From the NCBI RefSeq assembly GCF_028747805.1, contig NZ_CP114887.1:1171501-1235500 (forward strand): 64,000 nt of DNA, read 5' to 3'. Below the pieces are notes generated by a model, which saw only the letters and a program-made list of their open reading frames with translations, had not been told where the DNA came from and made no database searches. This document shows positions 11,877 to 59,157 of the stretch, in pieces; position 1 is the stretch's first letter, and each line of letters starts with the position of its first letter. A program made the position numbers and the translations under genes. The stretch comes from Solibacillus daqui. GTDB taxonomy: Bacteria > Bacillota > Bacilli > Bacillales_A > Planococcaceae.

Positions 11877-12127
11877 TTAACTTGCTTCAGCAAATTCTTT
11901 TTGTACCATAAGCAAAAGGACGGGTACAGAAGTCTCCTTTTCAGCAAGGGGCCAAACCCAGGCTGAATGGAGGAACTCAGGCTAAGACGCCGCGTCGTGC
12001 GGCAACACCTGAGTGACCAACATCGTGTTGGCCCAAGCCTCTGGCAGATGTCACAGATTTTTTAGAGGAGTTTTTCGAGCCTGCTCGAAAAAATCTGGAC
12101 GCAATTACGCAAAAGCGTAATTGATTA
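11877..12127 (+). repeat. Repeat R1a, complete modular copy (A-B-C)
   Basis: Copy of the R1 family. The left end is TTAACTTGCTTCAGC. Module A includes a GTACC...GGTAC stem (about 11904-11930). Module B (11976-12031) has an outer stem CTCAGG/CCTGAG, an inner stem GCCGC/GCGGC and a third stem CCAACA/TGTTGG. Module C begins with ATGTCACAGATTTTTT, has a TCGAGC/GCTCGA hairpin, closes with AATCTGG, and ends in a CAATTACGC/GCGTAATTG hairpin at 12102-12123. No coding capacity of its own is evident. Confidence 0.85.
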
Positions 12128-16267: not shown

Positions 16268-16268
16268 T

Positions 16269-16350
16269 TGAACTTGATTCAGCAAAATCTTTTTGTACCA
16301 TAAGCAAAGCGACAGGTACAGAAGTCCTCCACTTCTATAAGTGGGGGACA
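16269..16350 (+). repeat. Repeat R1b, module A only
   Basis: Starts with TTGAACTTGATTCAGC and carries the TGTACC/GGTACA stem and a CCTCCACTT/AAGTGGGGG hairpin. The matching hairpin in copy R1d reads CCAACTT/AAGTTGG, so the pairing is kept while bases change. Modules B and C are missing. It lies between liaH and liaF. Confidence 0.8.
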
Positions 16351-16395
16351 CTCTTAGTTTAGCTAAAGCGCTAGTATATTTGCTCTATTATACCA

Positions 16396-19145: not shown

Positions 19146-19287
19146 ATAAAAAACCCAGTCCTTACTAAATAAAATGTAATAATTTTGTTTAATCCTGAAA
19201 CATAAAGTTTCACAATTAATGGTTACGTGTTCACTCTAATTTACCACCTCATCCTGTTAAATGCCATATAGCTGGGGATTTCCTTTC

Positions 19288-19350
19288 TTGGTGAATAGGA
19301 AAGTATAAGTTTTTAAGGAAATCCACATAAGAAAAGACATCAATTCGCGC
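19288..19350 (+). repeat. Repeat R3, first copy (truncated hairpin)
   Basis: About 63 bp closely resemble 33514-33577, sharing AAGTATAAGTTTTT and ACATAAGAAAAGACATCAA. This copy ends at TTCGCGCT without the closing GCGCGAG arm seen in the other copy. It lies ahead of luxS. Confidence 0.75.
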
Positions 19351-19431
19351 TATAAAAATCTGAATATTCTATTGATTCTATCGTCCCAGTGGTCTAATCT
19401 AAAGAAGGAATACAATTTGGAGGGACGCAAA

Positions 19432-22281: not shown

Positions 22282-22536
22282 ATGGCAAAAAAGAAACAAC
22301 AACGTCAAACTTCAGAATTTGAATTACCAAAAGAAAAAGCTGCAACATTGGCCGATCAACTGGGTGGAGATGTACTAGCAAAATTAAAAGCGGCGAAGCA
22401 GGAAATGGTTGCCGATGAGCAAGCAAAAGAGGAAGAACGTATTGCAAAAGCGAAGTTCGAGAAAAAGCAACGCGAAAAAAATATGAGCTTTGAAGAATTA
22501 TTTAACCAATACGGTGACCAAGGCTCGAAGTTTTAG
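22282..22536 (+). CDS. YqkE-like small charged protein (DUF3886)
   Basis: 84 residues, very rich in Lys, Glu and Gln, with a coiled-coil middle and the C-terminal EKKQREKNMSFEELFNQYGDQGSKF typical of Bacillus YqkE. Function unknown. ATG 22282 is preferred because AAAGGTGA lies 5-6 nt upstream, inside the longer frame that begins at 22264. It follows the thiolase by about 20 nt. Confidence 0.85.
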   Translation: MAKKKQQRQTSEFELPKEKAATLADQLGGDVLAKLKAAKQEMVADEQAKEEERIAKAKFEKKQREKNMSFEELFNQYGDQGSKF

Positions 22537-25721: not shown

Positions 25722-25739
25722 TAATCTATGATCAAAAAA

Positions 25740-25941
25740 GGGGGTGTCCGAGAAGTGATTCTGGGACACCCCCTTTGCGCCGAGGATGGAGGCCAGCACG
25801 ATGCTGGTCATGAATGCGTTGTCACACGATGTGACGGTTTTAGCATTCGTTCCTATTTCGACCACCGCAGAAGCACCGCCTGCAGCGGGTAATTAATACA
25901 CGAACGAAGAACTGCGCGAGAAGTATTTACTTTTCGCGCAG
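25740..25941 (-). repeat. Repeat R2, copy A (inverted relative to copy B)
   Basis: About 200 bp that are nearly the exact reverse complement of 53928-54127. In the minus orientation it holds the same module B as R1: outer GAATGC/GCATTC, inner GTCACA/TGTGAC, third CCAGCA/TGCTGG, then a GGGGTGTCC/GGACACCCC hairpin. It begins 19 nt after the fur stop and its other end forms the terminator at 25912-25950. An open frame inside it is part of the repeat. Confidence 0.92.
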
Positions 25942-31582: not shown

Positions 31583-33340
31583 ATGCAATTGAAGTGGTCG
31601 GGGAGATTTGAGGGGTATACATTTGCACATTTTAAAAAGGATTTAATTTCGGGAACAATTGTTGGGATTATCGCAATTCCACTGGCGATGTCTTTTGCAA
31701 TTGCATCAGGAGTAAAACCCGAATATGGCATATACACCGCGATAATTGCAGGGATATTAATATCGCTACTAGGTGGATCAAAATACCAAATAGGTGGGCC
31801 AACTGGTGCCTTTGTTCCGGTTTTACTTGGGATTGTACTCGTTTACGGATATGAAAATCTATTAATTGCTGGACTCATGGCGGGGGTCATGCTTGTTTTA
31901 ATGGGTGTATTTAAGCTTGGCACACTCATAAAGTTCATTCCGAGACCTGTGACAGTTGGCTTTACAGCAGGGATTGCGGTCATCATTTTTACCGGACAAG
32001 TTGGTAATTTTTTAGGTCTATCGAATATGCAACAGCATGAAAAGTTTCATATGAATGTGCTAGAAATTGCTTCAAATATGAGCACATTCAATTATTATAG
32101 TGTGCTTGTAGCGGGAATTTGCCTTGCGCTTATTTTACTAACACCTCGCCTATTACCAAAAGTTCCAGGTACGCTTGTTGGCATTATTGTGTCTACTATT
32201 ATTGCAGTGCTGTTTTTACAAGGACAAGTAGCGACAATCGGTTCCACATATGGTGAAATACCAAATACGTTACCTCAATTTCAAATACCTGAAATTACAT
32301 TTGAACGAATCTATTTGTTAATTGGTCCTGCATTTGTTATTGCGATGCTTGGCGGGATTGAGTCATTATTATCTGCTGTTGTCGCAGATGGAATGACAAA
32401 CAGTAAGCATAATAGTAATCGTGAACTAATCGGACAGGGAGTTGCTAATATTGTGACGCCGTTATTCGGGGGGATTCCTGCGACAGGTGCGATTGCACGT
32501 ACGGCTACAAATATTAAAACTGGCGCAACTTCACCAATGTCCGGCATCATCCACGGGGTATTTGTACTGTTAACATTAGTATTGCTCGCACCGCTTGCCG
32601 TGCATATCCCACTTGCGAGTTTAGCACCGGTGCTAATGATGGTGGCATGGAATATGAGTGAACGTCATCATTTTTTACATATTGTAAAGCTCAAATCAGG
32701 GGATTCGCTTGTACTTGTTATTACGTTTTTATTAACCGTATTTACGAGCTTAACATTTGCGGTGCAGGTAGGCTTAATTTTAGCGGTTATCCTATTTGCG
32801 AAACGAATGAGTGATATGCTAACGGTAACAAAGGTGCTACCGAATTTAGAAGAGCATGGTGGGAAGTTGCAATCGCAAATGGTGTCAGATACACATGATT
32901 GTCCGCAAATTAGTGTTTATACAATTGATGGACCATTATTTTTTGGCGCGGCTCAAACGTTTGAACAATCAATATTAAATACACTTCATTATCGACCAGC
33001 AGTATTTATAATGCGCTTAGGAAAGGTACCTTATATTGATTCAACCGGTGAGGAATATTTCCGAAGCATCGTACGTGATTTCCAAAACAATGGTGGGATG
33101 ATACTTGTCAGTGGTGTACAGCCAAGTTTACAAATCATGCTTGAACGCAACGGATTACTTGAATTGATTGGTGCGGATCATTTTTATGCATCAACAGGCG
33201 AGGCAATTTCTGAAGCAATTTCAATTATTAATCAAAACAAATGCTTTGGCTGTAAGCATTTTGCGTTTCGTGAATGTCAGCAGCTTGCGAATGGTGAGCA
33301 ATTAGAACAACCAAAACAACTTATAGAAACAACCATTTAA
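31583..33340 (+). CDS. SulP-family anion transporter with STAS domain
   Basis: 585 residues. The membrane part (about 20-420) begins KKDLISGTIVGIIAIPLAMSFAIASGVKPEYGIYTAI, the SulP signature, and includes GGIPATGAIARTATNIKTGA. A cytoplasmic STAS domain follows (about 440-555, IYTIDGPLFFGAAQTFE). SulP proteins carry sulfate, bicarbonate or related anions; the substrate is not set by sequence alone. The C-terminal tail has a cysteine group, CFGCKHFAFREC, an uncommon addition that could bind metal. Repeat R1c starts on its stop codon. Confidence 0.9.
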   Translation: MQLKWSGRFEGYTFAHFKKDLISGTIVGIIAIPLAMSFAIASGVKPEYGIYTAIIAGILISLLGGSKYQIGGPTGAFVPVLLGIVLVYGYENLLIAGLMAGVMLVLMGVFKLGTLIKFIPRPVTVGFTAGIAVIIFTGQVGNFLGLSNMQQHEKFHMNVLEIASNMSTFNYYSVLVAGICLALILLTPRLLPKVPGTLVGIIVSTIIAVLFLQGQVATIGSTYGEIPNTLPQFQIPEITFERIYLLIGPAFVIAMLGGIESLLSAVVADGMTNSKHNSNRELIGQGVANIVTPLFGGIPATGAIARTATNIKTGATSPMSGIIHGVFVLLTLVLLAPLAVHIPLASLAPVLMMVAWNMSERHHFLHIVKLKSGDSLVLVITFLLTVFTSLTFAVQVGLILAVILFAKRMSDMLTVTKVLPNLEEHGGKLQSQMVSDTHDCPQISVYTIDGPLFFGAAQTFEQSILNTLHYRPAVFIMRLGKVPYIDSTGEEYFRSIVRDFQNNGGMILVSGVQPSLQIMLERNGLLELIGADHFYASTGEAISEAISIINQNKCFGCKHFAFRECQQLANGEQLEQPKQLIETTI

Positions 33341-33460
33341 CTTGTCTCAGAAGGGGGTAAAACCCCGTGAAGAAAATTTGTTCCACGGCGTATGTCACAG
33401 ATTTTTTTTCGAGCAAGCTCAAAAAAAATCTGGAAGCAATTACGCTGAGGCGAAATTGAT
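33337..33460 (+). repeat. Repeat R1c, left end plus module C
   Basis: Starts TTAACTTGTCTCAG, with the TAA being the sulP stop codon. Module B is absent. Module C is present: ATGTCACAGATTTTTTTT, GAGCAAGCTC, AAAAATCTGG, then a decayed CAATTACGC/GCGAAATTG hairpin ending at about 33460. Confidence 0.82.
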
Positions 33461-33462
33461 CG

Positions 33463-33511
33463 AAACAACTGTCTAAAAGGGTAGCATCCTTTTTCAGACG
33501 GTTGTTTTTTT
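33463..33511 (+). terminator. Terminator after sulP and R1c
   Basis: AACAAC, GTCT and AAAAGG pair with CCTTTT, AGAC and GTTGTT with small mismatches, followed by a T run. Confidence 0.85.
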
Positions 33512-33513
33512 GT

Positions 33514-33590
33514 TTGGTGGATAAAAAAGTATAAGTTTTTTAATGTAACCTACATAAGAAAAGACATCAACTCGCGCTCTTTTGCGCGAG
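33514..33590 (+). repeat. Repeat R3, second copy with complete hairpin
   Basis: Resembles 19288-19350 over about 63 bp, then continues through CAACTCGCGC, a TCTTTT loop and GCGCGAGTTG, a perfect 10-bp stem followed by TATTTTTC, which can act as a terminator. Confidence 0.78.
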
Positions 33591-48945: not shown

Positions 48946-48985
48946 AAATTCACCATTTACAACTGAATGGTGAATTTAATTTTTT
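48946..48985 (+). terminator. Terminator after resE
   Basis: A perfect 12-bp stem, AAATTCACCATT with AATGGTGAATTT, is followed by a T run that runs into the left end of R1d. Confidence 0.92.
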
Positions 48986-49118
48986 AACTTGCTTCAGAAA
49001 TTTTTTGTACCGAAAGCGAAGTGACAGGTACAGAAGCCCCAACTTCTATAAGTTGGGTTGAATGCTAAATATGCAAATCTATACAGTGGGCGTTCAAACC
49101 CCGGCTGAATCAAGTTAA
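48984..49118 (+). mobile_element. Module A of R1d, MITE-like with inverted ends
   Basis: The left end TTAACTTGCTTCAG and the right end CTGAATCAAGTTAA (49105-49118) are inverted repeats with one mismatch, bounded by TTAA on both sides. The 135-bp interior has a GTACC/GGTAC stem and a CCAACTT/AAGTTGG hairpin and no gene. The build is that of a miniature inverted-repeat element; whether it moves is unknown. Confidence 0.6.
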
Positions 49119-49208
49119 TGCCCCGGCGGATGTCACAGATTTTTTAGGGGAGTTTTTCGAGCGAGCTCGAAAAAAATCTGGACGCAATTACGCCGAGGCG
49201 TAATTGAT
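48984..49208 (+). repeat. Repeat R1d, modules A and C
   Basis: After the MITE-like part comes module C at about 49128: GATGTCACAGATTTTTT, TTTTTCGAG/CTCGAAAAA, AAATCTGG and the hairpin CAATTACGC/GCGTAATTG ending at 49206. Module B is missing. Confidence 0.85.
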
Positions 49209-49310: not shown

Positions 49311-49844
49311 GTGCAACAATCCATTTTCCATCGGTTATACGATATGTATCATCACGATGTTTTTAACTTTTTGTATTATATTGTGAAAAACCGCACAGCT
49401 GCTGAAGATCTTTCTCATGAAGTTTATATAAGAGTATTGAATGCCTATGACCGATTTGAAGGGAAAAGCAGCGAAAAAACCTGGCTATTTTCCATTGCGA
49501 AAAATGTTGCAATTGATTACTTCCGAAAAAAGCAGGTTCGGGATAAACATGCATTTACCGCATTTGATTGGGAGACAGAGCAGCTCGTATCACATAGCCC
49601 ATCACCAGAACAGTTTGTAGAGTTAAGTGATCAGCTTAGGCAATTACTAGAAGCGTTAGAACAATGTACAGGTGATCAAAAAATGGTCATTATTATGCGC
49701 TTTATGCAAGAATTGTCGATTCAGGAGACTGCCGAAATTTTAGGGTGGACTCAAGGGAAAGTAAAAACAACGCAGCACCGGGCATTAAAAAATTTACGTT
49801 TAATATTGGAGCAGCAAGATGGAAAGGGGGGCGATTCATTATGA
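49311..49844 (+). CDS. sigX: ECF sigma factor, SigX-like
   Basis: 177 residues from GTG 49311 (GGAGGTG at 6 nt). Region 2 includes HHDVFNFLYYIVKNRTAAEDLSHEVYIRVL and KTWLFSIAKNVAIDYFRKKQ; region 4 is MRFMQELSIQETAEILGWTQGKVKTTQHRALKNLR. Position after resE and a linked anti-sigma gene match sigX, which controls envelope charge and lipid genes. ATGA overlap with the anti-sigma gene. Confidence 0.92.
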   Translation: MQQSIFHRLYDMYHHDVFNFLYYIVKNRTAAEDLSHEVYIRVLNAYDRFEGKSSEKTWLFSIAKNVAIDYFRKKQVRDKHAFTAFDWETEQLVSHSPSPEQFVELSDQLRQLLEALEQCTGDQKMVIIMRFMQELSIQETAEILGWTQGKVKTTQHRALKNLRLILEQQDGKGGDSL

Positions 49845-51052
49845 ACAAGGAGCAATGGGATGATGAGAATTTAGAAAACCTTTTCAAACAAGCGCCGAAA
49901 GTAAATGATCTTCGAACAAAAGATGTAGTACTACAGCGTTTAATTGATGAAGGCGCATTTGATGAAAAACCGCCTCAATTACAAAAAGTAGCACAAAAAA
50001 GAATTCGCTGGACACCATTAATTGCCTCGATTGCGTCATTATTTATTTTAGTATTAATAGGTTCACAATTTATAGGGAACAACTCGATTTCAATGGAAAA
50101 CAGTGCGCGTGATGAAGGAGAAAAGGAATCAACTAGTGACGCTATGGAAGCAAAAATGGCTGACCAATCTGAGGAATCTTCATTGATGACAACGCGTGCT
50201 TTTGTAAATGCGACGACACAACAAACACTTGTATACGAATCGCAATTAGAAGGTGTTACATTATTTGAAATGGGCTTATCAGTTGGTACAGAAAGTATTC
50301 CAGTAAGTTTTTTAATCCCAAATGATATCGTTTTAAATAAAGTAGGCACAGATCATCCAACGAATTTGCAATTGTATGAAACATTTGCATCGAAAATAGA
50401 TGAAACAGCTTTAGGCTTTAGTGAGTATCACCCATTTAAAGGAACATTTCATGAACAAGAGGACGGAATAATTCATACATTACCTGATGGACATAATTAT
50501 GATGCAAGTTCAGCAAACATTTCAAATTATACCGGAGCATTAATCAATACGTTTGGAGATGCTTATAAGGAAGTACAGCTTGAAAATGAACAAGGTGAAC
50601 CTTTATTTTTCAATCATTTGGGTAATTTGACAGAGCCAATTCAATTACAAGGTGAACAAAGACAATACAATTATTTTGTCTATCAGAAACAAGATGGCTC
50701 ATATTATTTAAGCCCAAATTTCCATACGAGCTTTTCAACAGTTGAAGAAGCATTAAACAATATGGCAGTTGAATCAAATGATCTATATCAATCAGCCATT
50801 TTACCTGATGTGACATTTAATACAGAAGTAAAAGATAATATTGTAACGATTACATTCGATCAGCCGCTTGATTTAGAACAATTTGAGCCAACAGCAGCGA
50901 TGCGTATGATTGAAGGAATGCTATTAACGGCAGCAAGTTTCGATAAACAAATTAAATTTGAACATATTGTACAAGATAATTGGAGTGGTTTTGACTTCAC
51001 AAAGCCTTTAGAGAAGCCAATAGGAGCGAATATCGTTTTATATAACTTTTAA
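49841..51052 (+). CDS. rsiX: Anti-sigma factor, RsiX-like
   Basis: 403 residues: an N-terminal cytoplasmic sigma-binding part (1-57), one membrane helix (about 58-77, PLIASIASLFILVLIGSQFI), and a large external domain. It should hold the ECF sigma at the membrane. The ATG overlaps the sigma stop, with GGAAAGGGGG upstream. Repeat R1e begins on its stop codon. It is somewhat longer than B. subtilis RsiX. Confidence 0.85.
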   Translation: MNKEQWDDENLENLFKQAPKVNDLRTKDVVLQRLIDEGAFDEKPPQLQKVAQKRIRWTPLIASIASLFILVLIGSQFIGNNSISMENSARDEGEKESTSDAMEAKMADQSEESSLMTTRAFVNATTQQTLVYESQLEGVTLFEMGLSVGTESIPVSFLIPNDIVLNKVGTDHPTNLQLYETFASKIDETALGFSEYHPFKGTFHEQEDGIIHTLPDGHNYDASSANISNYTGALINTFGDAYKEVQLENEQGEPLFFNHLGNLTEPIQLQGEQRQYNYFVYQKQDGSYYLSPNFHTSFSTVEEALNNMAVESNDLYQSAILPDVTFNTEVKDNIVTITFDQPLDLEQFEPTAAMRMIEGMLLTAASFDKQIKFEHIVQDNWSGFDFTKPLEKPIGANIVLYNF

Positions 51053-51244
51053 CTTGATTCAGCAGGGTCTAAATCCTCGACTGAATTGTGGTACGAAGGC
51101 TAAAAGCGTCACGTCCTGTGCTAACGCCTTCGTGATCAACTTCGTGTTGACCTAATGCCCCTTGCGGATGTCACAGATTTTTTTAGAAGTGTTTTTCAAG
51201 CGTGCTAAAAAAAATCTGGAGGTAATTACGTCGGATCGTAATGA
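51049..51244 (+). repeat. Repeat R1e, left end plus modules B and C
   Basis: Begins TTAACTTGATTCAGC on the rsiX TAA. Most of module A is lost. Module B (51094-51150) has outer CGAAGGC/GCCTTCG, a weak inner CAC/GTG, and TCAAC/GTTGA. Module C starts GGATGTCACAGATTTTTTT and ends in a decayed AATTACG/CGTAAT hairpin. Confidence 0.85.
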
Positions 51245-51265
51245 ATCTAATCAAATAAATTTACT

Positions 51266-51313: not shown

Positions 51314-51362
51314 AGTAATTGTAGTAAAGTTATTCGTACTTTACGAACAAATTTCATATTGA

Positions 51363-51540
51363 TTCATCTTCGGGGCAGGGTGTAATTCCCGACCGGCGGT
51401 AATAAAAGTGTCAACTTCTGACCATTTACTTGGAGGACGTTGCGTCAAAGCTTTTTCAGCCCGCGAGCCACAATTTGTGTGCAGGATTTGGTGAGATTCC
51501 AAAGCCGACAGTATAGTCTGGATGGGAGAAGGTGAAGGTA
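51363..51540 (+). ncRNA. FMN riboswitch (RFN element)
   Basis: The aptamer is nearly textbook: ATCTTCGGGGCAGGG, GTAATTCCCGACCGGCGGTA, AGCCCGCGAGC, then GCAGGATTTGGTGAGATTCC, AAAGCCGACAGTATAGTC and GATGGGAGAAGGTG. It controls ribU; bound FMN favours the terminator at 51683. Confidence 0.97.
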
Positions 51541-53927: not shown

Positions 53928-54127
53928 CTGAGCGAAAAGTATTTACTTTTCGCGCAGTGCTTCATTCGTGTATTAATTATCCGCTGCAGGCGGTGCTTCT
54001 GCGGTGGTCGAAATAAGAACGAATGCTAAAACCGTCACATCGTGTGACAACGCATTCATGACCAGCATCGTGCTGGCCTCCATCCTCGGCGCAAAGGGGT
54101 GTCCCAGAATCACTTCTCGGACACCCC
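53928..54127 (+). repeat. Repeat R2, copy B
   Basis: About 200 bp, 11 nt after the brnQ stop, almost identical to the reverse complement of copy A. Order: CTGAGCGAAAAG/CTTTTCGCGCAG hairpin, a CCGCTGCAGGCGG region, module B (54021-54076), a CGCAAAG link, and the GGGGTGTCC/GGACACCCC hairpin. The two copies differ at only a few positions. Confidence 0.92.
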
Positions 54128-54142
54128 TTTTCTGCATTAAAA

Positions 54143-57189: not shown

Positions 57190-58548
57190 ATGATAAATCC
57201 AGTGGTAAATGGAACAAGAAAGTTAACAAAAGAGGATATCAAAAAAATCGTTGTGGACAAAAATGTTAAGTTTATTCGTCTTCAATTCACAGATATTTTA
57301 GGGACAATCAAAAACGTTGAAATTCCAGTAAGCCAATTAGAAAAAGCATTAGATAATAAAATGATGTTTGATGGTTCATCAATTGAGGGCTTCGTACGTA
57401 TCGAAGAATCTGACATGTACTTACGCCCAGACTTAGATACTTTCATGATTTTCCCGTGGACAGCTGAAAAAGGTAAAGTAGCACGCTTGATTTGTGATAT
57501 CGCTCGTCCAGATGGTACACCATTTGAAGGAGACCCTCGTTCGAACTTAAAACGTATGTTAAAAGAAATGGAGGCCCTAGGTTTCACAGGCTTCAACTTA
57601 GGACCAGAGCCAGAATTCTTCTTATTCAAATTAGATGAAAAAGGCGAACCAACATTAGAGTTAAATGATGATGGTGGATACTTCGATTTAGCGCCAACAG
57701 ACTTAGGTGAAAACTGCCGTCGTGATATCGTATTAGAACTTGAAGAAATGGGCTTTGAAATCGAGGCATCTCACCACGAGGTAGCTCCTGGTCAGCACGA
57801 AATTGATTTCAAATATGCAAACGCGATAGAAGCATGTGATAACATCCAAACATTTAAATTAGTTGTAAAAACAATTGCACGTAAACACGGTCTACATGCG
57901 ACATTTATGCCAAAACCACTATTCGGAGTAAACGGTTCAGGAATGCACTTCAACTTATCGTTATTCCAAGGTGACAAAAACGCATTCTGGGATGAAGGTG
58001 CGGATTTACAATTATCAAAAACAGCGAAACATTTTATGGCGGGCGTATTAAAGCACGTGCAAGGTTTCACTGCGGTAACAAACCCAACAGTAAATTCTTA
58101 CAAGCGTTTAGTACCAGGATATGAAGCACCTTGCTACGTGGCATGGTCTGCGCAAAATCGTTCACCATTAATTCGTATTCCAGCTTCACGAGGATTATCA
58201 ACTCGTATTGAATTACGTTCAGTTGACCCATCTGCAAACCCGTACTTAGCAATGGCTGTAATTTTAGCAGCGGGCTTAGATGGCGTGAAAAACGAAATCG
58301 AACCACCAGCACCAGTTGACCGCAATATTTACGTGATGAACGCAGAAGAACGTGCAATAAATGGGATTGATAGCTTACCAGGCTCTTTAGATGCAGCGTT
58401 AGCGACATTAGCAAAAGACCAAATAATCATTGATGCTTTAGGTGACCACATCTATGCAAACTTTAAGGAAGCGAAAGAAGTAGAATTCGATATGTTCCGC
58501 ACAACGGTTACGCAGTGGGAACGCGACCAATATATGAAGATGTACTAA
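57190..58548 (+). CDS. glnA: Glutamine synthetase type I
   Basis: 452 residues. [43 protein letters not shown] and the RSPLIRIPA segment form the active site; there is no adenylylation-type control expected in the GSI-alpha class. It makes glutamine from glutamate and ammonia and tells GlnR/TnrA nitrogen state. AAAGGAGAG precedes the ATG by about 10 nt. Confidence 0.97.
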
Positions 58549-58550
58549 CA

Positions 58551-58588
58551 AAAAAGCGTTGGAGCGACTTGCTCCAACGCTTTTTTTT
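58551..58588 (+). terminator. Terminator after glnA
   Basis: A perfect stem AAAAAGCGTTGGAGC/GCTCCAACGCTTTTT with loop GACTT and extra T. Confidence 0.95.
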
Positions 58589-58673
58589 AGTTATTTCATT
58601 GCTCCAATTTCTCCATGTATTCATCAACATTATGAAATAAAGCAAATTGTGTATTACTGAAAGGAGAAAGTAT

Positions 58674-58964: not shown

Positions 58965-59065
58965 ATTTCACCTCGTTGAAAAGTACTTTTGTTACATTTT
59001 CAACTAATATCAATGCTTTTATACATTTCAAATGGCGCTCCACATATATACATTGATACAGAATC

Positions 59066-59120
59066 CGTACAACCGTTACGCAGTGGGAACGCGAACAATA
59101 TATGATGATGTACAAAGAAA
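59066..59120 (+). pseudogene. Remnant of a glnA 3' end
   Basis: The frame from about 59071 reads [16 protein letters not shown], nearly the same as the end of GlnA ([16 protein letters not shown]), with changes mainly at third codon positions. The terminator after it is also a relative of the glnA terminator. The rest of the gene is missing. Confidence 0.85.
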
Positions 59121-59157
59121 CAAGGGTTGGAGCGACTGGCTCCAACCCTTGTTTTTA
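59120..59157. terminator. Terminator shared with the glnA remnant
   Basis: ACAAGGGTTGGAGC pairs with GCTCCAACCCTTGT, loop GACTG, then T. It also ends the minus-strand kinase gene. Confidence 0.9.

Follow-up and report, generated by a model that had tools for sequence, protein, structure and literature searches.

What kind of element is R1, a repeat whose copies in the 64,000-nucleotide stretch of Solibacillus daqui DNA analysed here (the window) start at TTAA, and why do two of them lie on the stop codon of a gene? Our analysis showed that R1 is a non-autonomous mobile element without genes of its own, rich in hairpins and mostly ~110 to 350 bp in size. It is known at about 80 chromosomal places, mostly 3' of TTTAA and often exactly behind the stop codon of a gene. 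We judge it moderately probable that R1 is moved by single-strand transposition, with an HUH-type enzyme acting in trans and insertion 3' of TTTAA without target duplication, because the insertion signature and the orientation relative to replication fit IS200/IS605- or REP-like transposition of this kind.

Copies and modular structure of R1

The genome that holds the window consists of a single contig of 4.11 Mb. A search with copy R1d gave at least 45 matches in this genome (the best 40 of 144 candidates were scored), and searches with single modules added more. Around the R1 copies 460,588 bases were gathered, and the copy numbers are lower bounds. A scan for the right end gave 84 matches, or 80 copies once overlaps were merged. 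Thirty-two of these copies were simple; 16, 8 and 4 carried Bacillaceae-1 RNA (Rfam RF01690) in the placements a, b and a+b, respectively; 5 carried module A, 3 A+a and 2 A+a+b; and 10 had no recognised left end.

The oriented copies showed a fixed order of modules: TTTAA; a left hairpin, CTTG(A/C)TTCAGC ... GCTGAATCAAG; TTAA; a central hairpin, GCCCCGGCGGATGTCACAGATTTTTT ... AAAAAATCTGGAC; and the right palindrome with the end, CAATTACG...CGTAATTGAT. The loop of the left hairpin is either short, of the GGGGTTCAAACCCC type, or holds module A. RF01690 replaces the CAAGTTAA arm (type a) or occupies the loop of the central hairpin (type b). Two tandem joints were found in which GTAATTGAT is followed directly by CTTG. 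BOX elements of Streptococcus pneumoniae have a modular boxA-boxB-boxC structure with optional inserts; the layout of R1 is like theirs, but the sequence, the modules and the target are different.

Compared with dinucleotide shuffles, the single-stranded DNA folds had z = -7.1 for a simple copy and z = -4.5 for R1d, and the left hairpin was present in both. The right palindrome, CAATTACG/CGTAATTG in the sequence, appeared in the single-stranded DNA centroid of the simple copy and in 2 of 4 RNA folds; it was not formed in the minimum-energy single-stranded DNA folds of the simple copy and R1d, where it partly pairs with other bases. From 24 simple copies, RNAalifold derived no usable consensus, and the structure rests on single-sequence folds. 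Like PATEs, R1 thus has hairpins near both ends, the left one folded and the right one supported by sequence, centroid and these RNA folds.

The features in the window are collected in Table 1. The left ends are bounded by TTAA, as the earlier note had it; R1d reads TTAACTTGCTTCAG there, with the TTAA lying inside TTTAA. The note also took the far end of module A in R1d, the inverted repeat of the left end, as the far boundary of the unit. The sequence CTGAATCAAGTTAA does end at 49118, but R1d itself runs to 49208. The unit is consequently not bounded by TTAA on both sides: the second TTAA is the 3' foot of the internal left hairpin, and the usual right end is TTGAT.

Table 1. Positions of R1 copies, their targets and modules in the window (position 1 is its first letter)
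Feature	Position	Strand	Remarks
R1a target TTTAA	11876..11880	+	
R1a element	11881..12125	+	Module A + Bacillaceae-1 RNA + right module; RF01690 at 11966-12031
TTGAA left of R1b	16268..16272	+	Genome position 1187768; TTTAA in G013, G004 and G006; other bases in G010, G011 and G014
R1b, truncated copy without right end	16273..16353 (end approximate)	+	Begins TTGAACTTG
Reciprocal site	22531..22536	+	Window has TTTTAG stop and no R1; G013 has R1 directly after TTTTAA stop at 1237460; junction inexact
R1c target TTTAA	33336..33340	+	TAA 33338-33340 terminates the SulP-family gene; site empty in G013 and G011
R1c element	33341..33460	+	
R1d target TTTAA	48983..48987	+	Pre-existing DNA; G013 has TTTAT; TTAA is 48984-48987
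R1d element, CTTG...TTGAT	48988..49208	+	G013 empty site of predicted length
R1d left hairpin, CTTGCTTCAG ... CTGAATCAAG	48988..49114	+	Second arm 49105-49114; module A in loop
Module A core of R1d	49007..49057	+	GTACC...GGTAC, then CCCAACTTC/TATAAGTTGGG hairpin; weak likeness to IS605 right ends of relatives
R1d inner TTAA behind left hairpin	49115-49118	+	Could pair with target TTAA
R1d constant right module	49120..49208	+	Central hairpin; right-end hairpin 49185-49206; terminal TTGAT 49204-49208
R1e target TTTAA	51048..51052	+	TAA 51050-51052 terminates the ORF called rsiX; empty in G004 and G006 (TTTTAA) and G013 (TTTCAA)
R1e element	51053..51246	+	Right end GTAATGAAT in place of GTAATTGAT; RF01690 at 51084-51150

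Other repeats and RNA elements were also observed in the window. A second repeat family of ~200 bp, R2, forms an inverted pair at 25737-25941 (-) and 53928-54131 (+) that is 95% identical, with the ends GGGGGTGTCC...GGACACCCCC and Bacillaceae-1 RNA at 25793-25859 (-) and 54010-54076 (+). A third repeat, containing ACATAAGAAAAGACATCAA(T/C)TCGCGCT, lies at 19279-19351 and 33505-33578, and a similar stretch occurs in the relative G011 near the syntenic sigX-type locus. Two 94-nt copies at 58496-58589 and 59064-59157 are 88% alike; both terminate in a palindrome resembling a hairpin, behind which the sequence is rich in T. Two riboswitches were present, a cobalamin riboswitch at 524-703 and an FMN riboswitch at 51362-51537, the latter starting ~115 bp after R1e.

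Empty sites, target and stop codons

The sister species G013 was the nearest relative compared and is 88% identical over the query's first part. One search gave 7 RF01690 matches in G013 as opposed to 90 in the window's genome. We compared the R1 copies with 800 kb of G013 and required both flanks to align within 45 bases of the junction; 14 copies were scored, and the others were dropped uncounted. All scored copies are absent from G013; the empty sites that the earlier note proposed to look for in close strains thus exist in this sister species. The note had named common descent at fixed loci as the alternative; R1 copies would then be old regulatory RNA elements. The filing of RF01690 in Rfam as 'Gene; sRNA' and a Bacillaceae-1 copy outside R1, at position 1252177 of the genome and common to G013, speak for such an origin, but the 14 evaluable junctions are empty in G013 and RF01690 counts within the genus range from 3 to at least 94. 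Common descent is thus refuted as a general account and ruled out for the compared copies, and we regard it as extremely improbable; single R1 copies may be co-opted.

In 9 of the 14 empty sites, the length in G013 was exactly that predicted by removing CTTG...TTGAT, and the remaining five deviated by -11, -1, +1, +2 and +8. Eight junction models were compared by their total scores. The cut at CTTG...TTGAT scored best (798.5), followed by shifts of one base either way, which were slightly worse (790.5). Lower totals were obtained with a 2-bp target-site duplication (776.5), a shift by five bases (772.5), a cut without TTGAT (771.5), and duplications of 4 bp (744.5) and 5 bp (729.5). For the copy at 1105183, the five-base shift fits better. 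The clearest empty site is at 477549, where G013 reads GAGGCAGTTTAA joined directly to GCTATTTTCC and the window's genome has the element between GAGGCGGTTTAA and ACTATTTTCC. At sulP, TTTAA is found in G011 as in G013, and G004 and G006 are too diverged there; outgroup bases at rsiX and R1b are given in Table 1. The reciprocal site, with R1 in G013 only, has an inexact junction because its right flank in the window holds another repeat. At the sites compared, the sequence gained runs from CTTG to TTGAT and follows a TTTAA-like pentamer, and no target bases are duplicated. PATEs are likewise not known to duplicate the short target behind which they insert.

The proposal of a miniature element inserting at TTAA therefore holds in that R1 is mobile and its usual target contains TTAA, while the duplication of TTAA expected by the earlier note is contradicted by the model totals. 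A classical MITE, with TTAA at both ends and cut-and-paste movement duplicating TTAA (a piggyBac-like outcome), could account for the perfect TTAACTTGATTCAG/CTGAATCAAGTTAA palindrome in several copies. Besides the low total of the 4-bp duplication, R1d runs 90 bp past the second TTAA, and the right flanks have no shared TTAA. The true ends do not show the inverted repeats and two flanking TTAA of such a MITE, which is rejected for the compared copies and has a very low probability overall.

The pentamer before CTTG was TTTAA in 51 of 102 sites resembling left ends. This set is loose and has some spurious members; in it, the next base outward was T in 46%, only mildly T-rich. In the stricter set (80 right ends, 65 of them with a recognised left end), TTTAA preceded 41 of the 65 copies. 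The stop of a sense gene exactly abuts the left boundary in 18 of these 65, as counted by a simple gene finder working from ORFs; the script overlooked the sulP copy, which is one further case. Among TTTAA copies, the stop abuts in 14 of 41, compared to 48 of 1014 non-coding TTTAA sites taken from the G013 tiles (4.7%; p = 3e-9).

Both stop codons described in the earlier note were recovered. The sulP ORF (31583-33340; Pfam domains Sulfate_transp and STAS) and the ORF called rsiX (49745-51052) terminate at the TAA of the R1 left end. A Pfam search of the latter gave no domain, its name coming from the earlier note, and the ORF preceding it contains sigma-70 regions 2 and 4. The suggestion that reading frames stay ended was also right, since the TAA stop is kept at sulP, rsiX and others; the protein is unchanged because the TAA belongs to the target and the DNA is cut behind it. 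An R1 copy landing on a stop would leave the protein intact, and such copies would accumulate. The enrichment at stop codons may reflect selection or target choice. REP termini, too, often supply a stop codon (PMC3733652).

Orientation and candidate routes of movement

R1 was co-oriented with replication in 65 of 80 copies (Fisher p 2.9e-8). Before 2.05 Mb, close to where the GC skew of the fetched bases switches, 33 copies lay on the plus and 7 on the minus strand, and after it 8 and 32, respectively. No bias was observed for R2 (8/16), for the other RF01690 copies (17/34) or for non-coding TTTAA sites in the G013 tiles (51% co-oriented). In eight relatives, 65 of 86 copies among those listed agreed with replication, namely 12/14 in G013, 17/21 in G009, 14/21 in G002, 9/13 in G011, 5/5 in G001 and 7/7 in G003; G008 (1/4) and G010 (0/1) ran contrary to the bias. 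These eight were the relatives with the sigX-type locus on the plus strand at 1.0-1.36 Mb, coordinate 1 being taken as the origin and the halfway point as the terminus, and six other genomes were left out.

Gene direction confounds this pattern. Between codirectional genes, 45 of 53 copies were sense to the genes, and beside head-on genes only 4 of 10 followed replication. Where the neighbouring genes converge or diverge, so that their directions balance, 22 of 27 copies nevertheless ran with replication (one-sided p 0.0008). The preference for the lagging-strand template known from PATEs is thus present in R1, partly confounded with gene direction.

The upstream gene was sense to R1 in 61 of 80 copies. 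Together with the structured nature of R1 and the lack of a target-site duplication, this would suit an RNA-mediated insertion, in which a group II intron-like or other reverse transcriptase places a structured transcript behind UUUAA. However, the reverse transcriptase model (PF00078, RVT_1) matched nothing in the genome, and the bias was also seen in divergent settings (9 of 11 copies), where a transcript of a flanking gene is not expected. We consider this route quite improbable.

R1 resembles bcr1-bcr3 (group A) of the Bacillus cereus group, which are 100-400 bp long; bcr1 reaches up to 130 copies per strain, and a TTTAT motif is tied to its mobility (PMC6542083). It differs from bcr1 in its target TTTAA, in carrying RF01690, and in the absence of plasmid matches (blastn, 72,556 records), whereas bcr1 is stated to have plasmid copies; no R1 match was found in phages either. 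A bcr1-like element could be moved as double-stranded DNA by a tyrosine- or serine-type site-specific recombinase exchanging a short AT-rich core (TTTAA of the target, TTGAT of the element). Such an enzyme could leave the observed R1 junctions, and the genome has no match to PF01797. On the other hand, it predicts no strand bias beyond gene direction, in conflict with the convergent and divergent copies, and the match between the left pentamer and the empty site is what a one-sided cut predicts; the mirror model fits less well (772.5 against 798.5). Recombination of this type seems rather unlikely to us.

Elements of the IS200/IS605 family are not known to produce a target-site duplication and use a short 5' target. 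By single-strand transposition, R1 would travel in single-stranded form, leaving and entering the lagging-strand template. An IS200/IS605- or REP-like HUH transposase, acting in trans, would recognise the end hairpins and cut after TTTAA in the target and after TTGAT at the right end. The hairpin ends, the tandem joints and the lagging-strand orientation of R1 are shared with the literature on single-strand transposition of IS200/IS605 and REP elements (PMC6006769, PMC8266576, PMC7290912), and PMC7290912 itself reports no strand preference in its own genome, with 10 of 22 tnpA on the leading strand. PATEs, the ends-only derivatives of IS200/IS605 elements, are mobilised in trans, with end hairpins and use of the lagging-strand template (PMC7290912, PMC6006769). 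Unlike them, R1 has no cognate IS200/IS605 copy in the genome, and only module A has some similarity to IS605 ends. REPs with TnpA-REP (RAYT) are high-copy palindromes with proposed single-strand mobilisation in trans (PMC8266576); R1 is larger and modular, shows no GTAG/CGTC tag at its ends by eye, and resides in a genome without a PF01797 match.

The earlier note had also looked to a transposase with matching ends, and none was found. The Pfam models PF01797 (Y1), PF07282 (TnpB) and PF00078 had no match in the window's genome, and in the PF04986 search the control matched nowhere. PF01797 is present in 14 of 22 relatives, with a distribution that does not track copy number: none was found in G009 despite 89 RF01690 matches, one match with an in-frame stop in G002, which has at least 94, and two in G013, which has 7. 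The ends of Y1 elements inspected in relatives were not R1-like, so ends shared with a tnpA/tnpB element, as in PATEs, were not seen. Given the missing Pfam matches and the poor tracking of copy number by PF01797, bcr1-like recombination is the main rival. With single-strand transposition, the R1 transposase has probably been lost from the genome or belongs to a family undetected here. As a separate observation, several relatives contain an IS200-type element (L240-L245, L253-L256 and L263) with a tnpA frame of 180-188 aa and a CCCCCTGCTATGCGGGGGG left hairpin.

Module A from four copies was compared with nine IS605-type loci of relatives, and 2 of 36 comparisons exceeded z 4; in these, it resembled the right end that directly follows tnpB in two relatives. 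The best scores were z 5.9 for copy 16264 with L239 and z 4.4 for copy 48984 with L246, and others reached 3.1-3.8; copy 11872, one of the four tested, showed no IS605 similarity. In IS200/IS605-derived elements, guide sequences located 5' of the hairpins pair with the cleavage sites. In R1, the inner TTAA follows the left hairpin on its 3' side and is able to base-pair with the target. This complementarity of four bases was reached by 467 of 20,000 shuffles (37 rows, some with spurious left ends). Type a Bacillaceae-1 copies lack the inner TTAA and yet sit at TTTAA, so TTAA-TTAA pairing may not be needed as a guide.

Bacillaceae-1 RNA and the wider family

The covariance model of RF01690 gave 93 matches in the genome, 89 of them over the cut-off. 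Forty-three were no more than 400 bases away from an R1 right end; 16 belonged to R2, and 34 lay elsewhere. At least one match was present in 33 of 70 R1 copies with a left end, with 39 modules altogether, and two R1 copies in the window scored above the gathering threshold. Modules a and b thus exceed the threshold of the family as filed, but here at least two repeat families, R1 and R2, contain them. In this genome, RF01690 is often a module of a mobile element rather than a stand-alone gene. In the titles and abstract starts of the RF01690 papers listed, no tie to a mobile element was found; the family also has a table entry in PMC2864571.

Related elements occur in other genomes with different left modules. 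In G011, an R1-like element (L221, contig C1, about 1192230-1192355) lies at the same rsiX stop as R1e, with another left hairpin, AAACCTCTTTTAGC/GCTAAAAGAGGTTT, and the same type of right end; this may represent an insertion hot spot or a swap of the left module. An exact match to the right end was present in two named records, from Ureibacillus galli and Lysinibacillus halotolerans. They have a locus in common (L269, L270) in which the R1 right end is combined with a left palindrome, GTTTAACA...TGTTAAAC, next to TTTAA. The element is apparently orthologous between the two species. The G011 element and this locus suggest exchange of left modules.

A more far-reaching, though rather unlikely, reading is that R1 represents what can be seen of a modular element family in this bacterial group that transposes as single strands and in which interchangeable left hairpins and RNA-like inserts are combined with a constant right module (CAGATTTT...AAAATCTGGACGCAATTACG...CGTAATTGAT). 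All members would land 3' of TTTAA, with stop codons favoured, and the mobiliser would lie outside the families searched. RF01690 would then be a working part of the element, for example a hairpin pair bound by the mobiliser, and not a cellular sRNA.

These results raise the question of which enzyme moved about 80 R1 copies in a genome where the Pfam models of Y1, TnpB and reverse transcriptase match nothing. A high-copy repeat now has an insertion signature, 3' of TTTAA, without duplication and with a replication-strand bias, which explains its presence on stop codons. RF01690, an orphan Rfam family filed as an sRNA, is placed within a mobile element.
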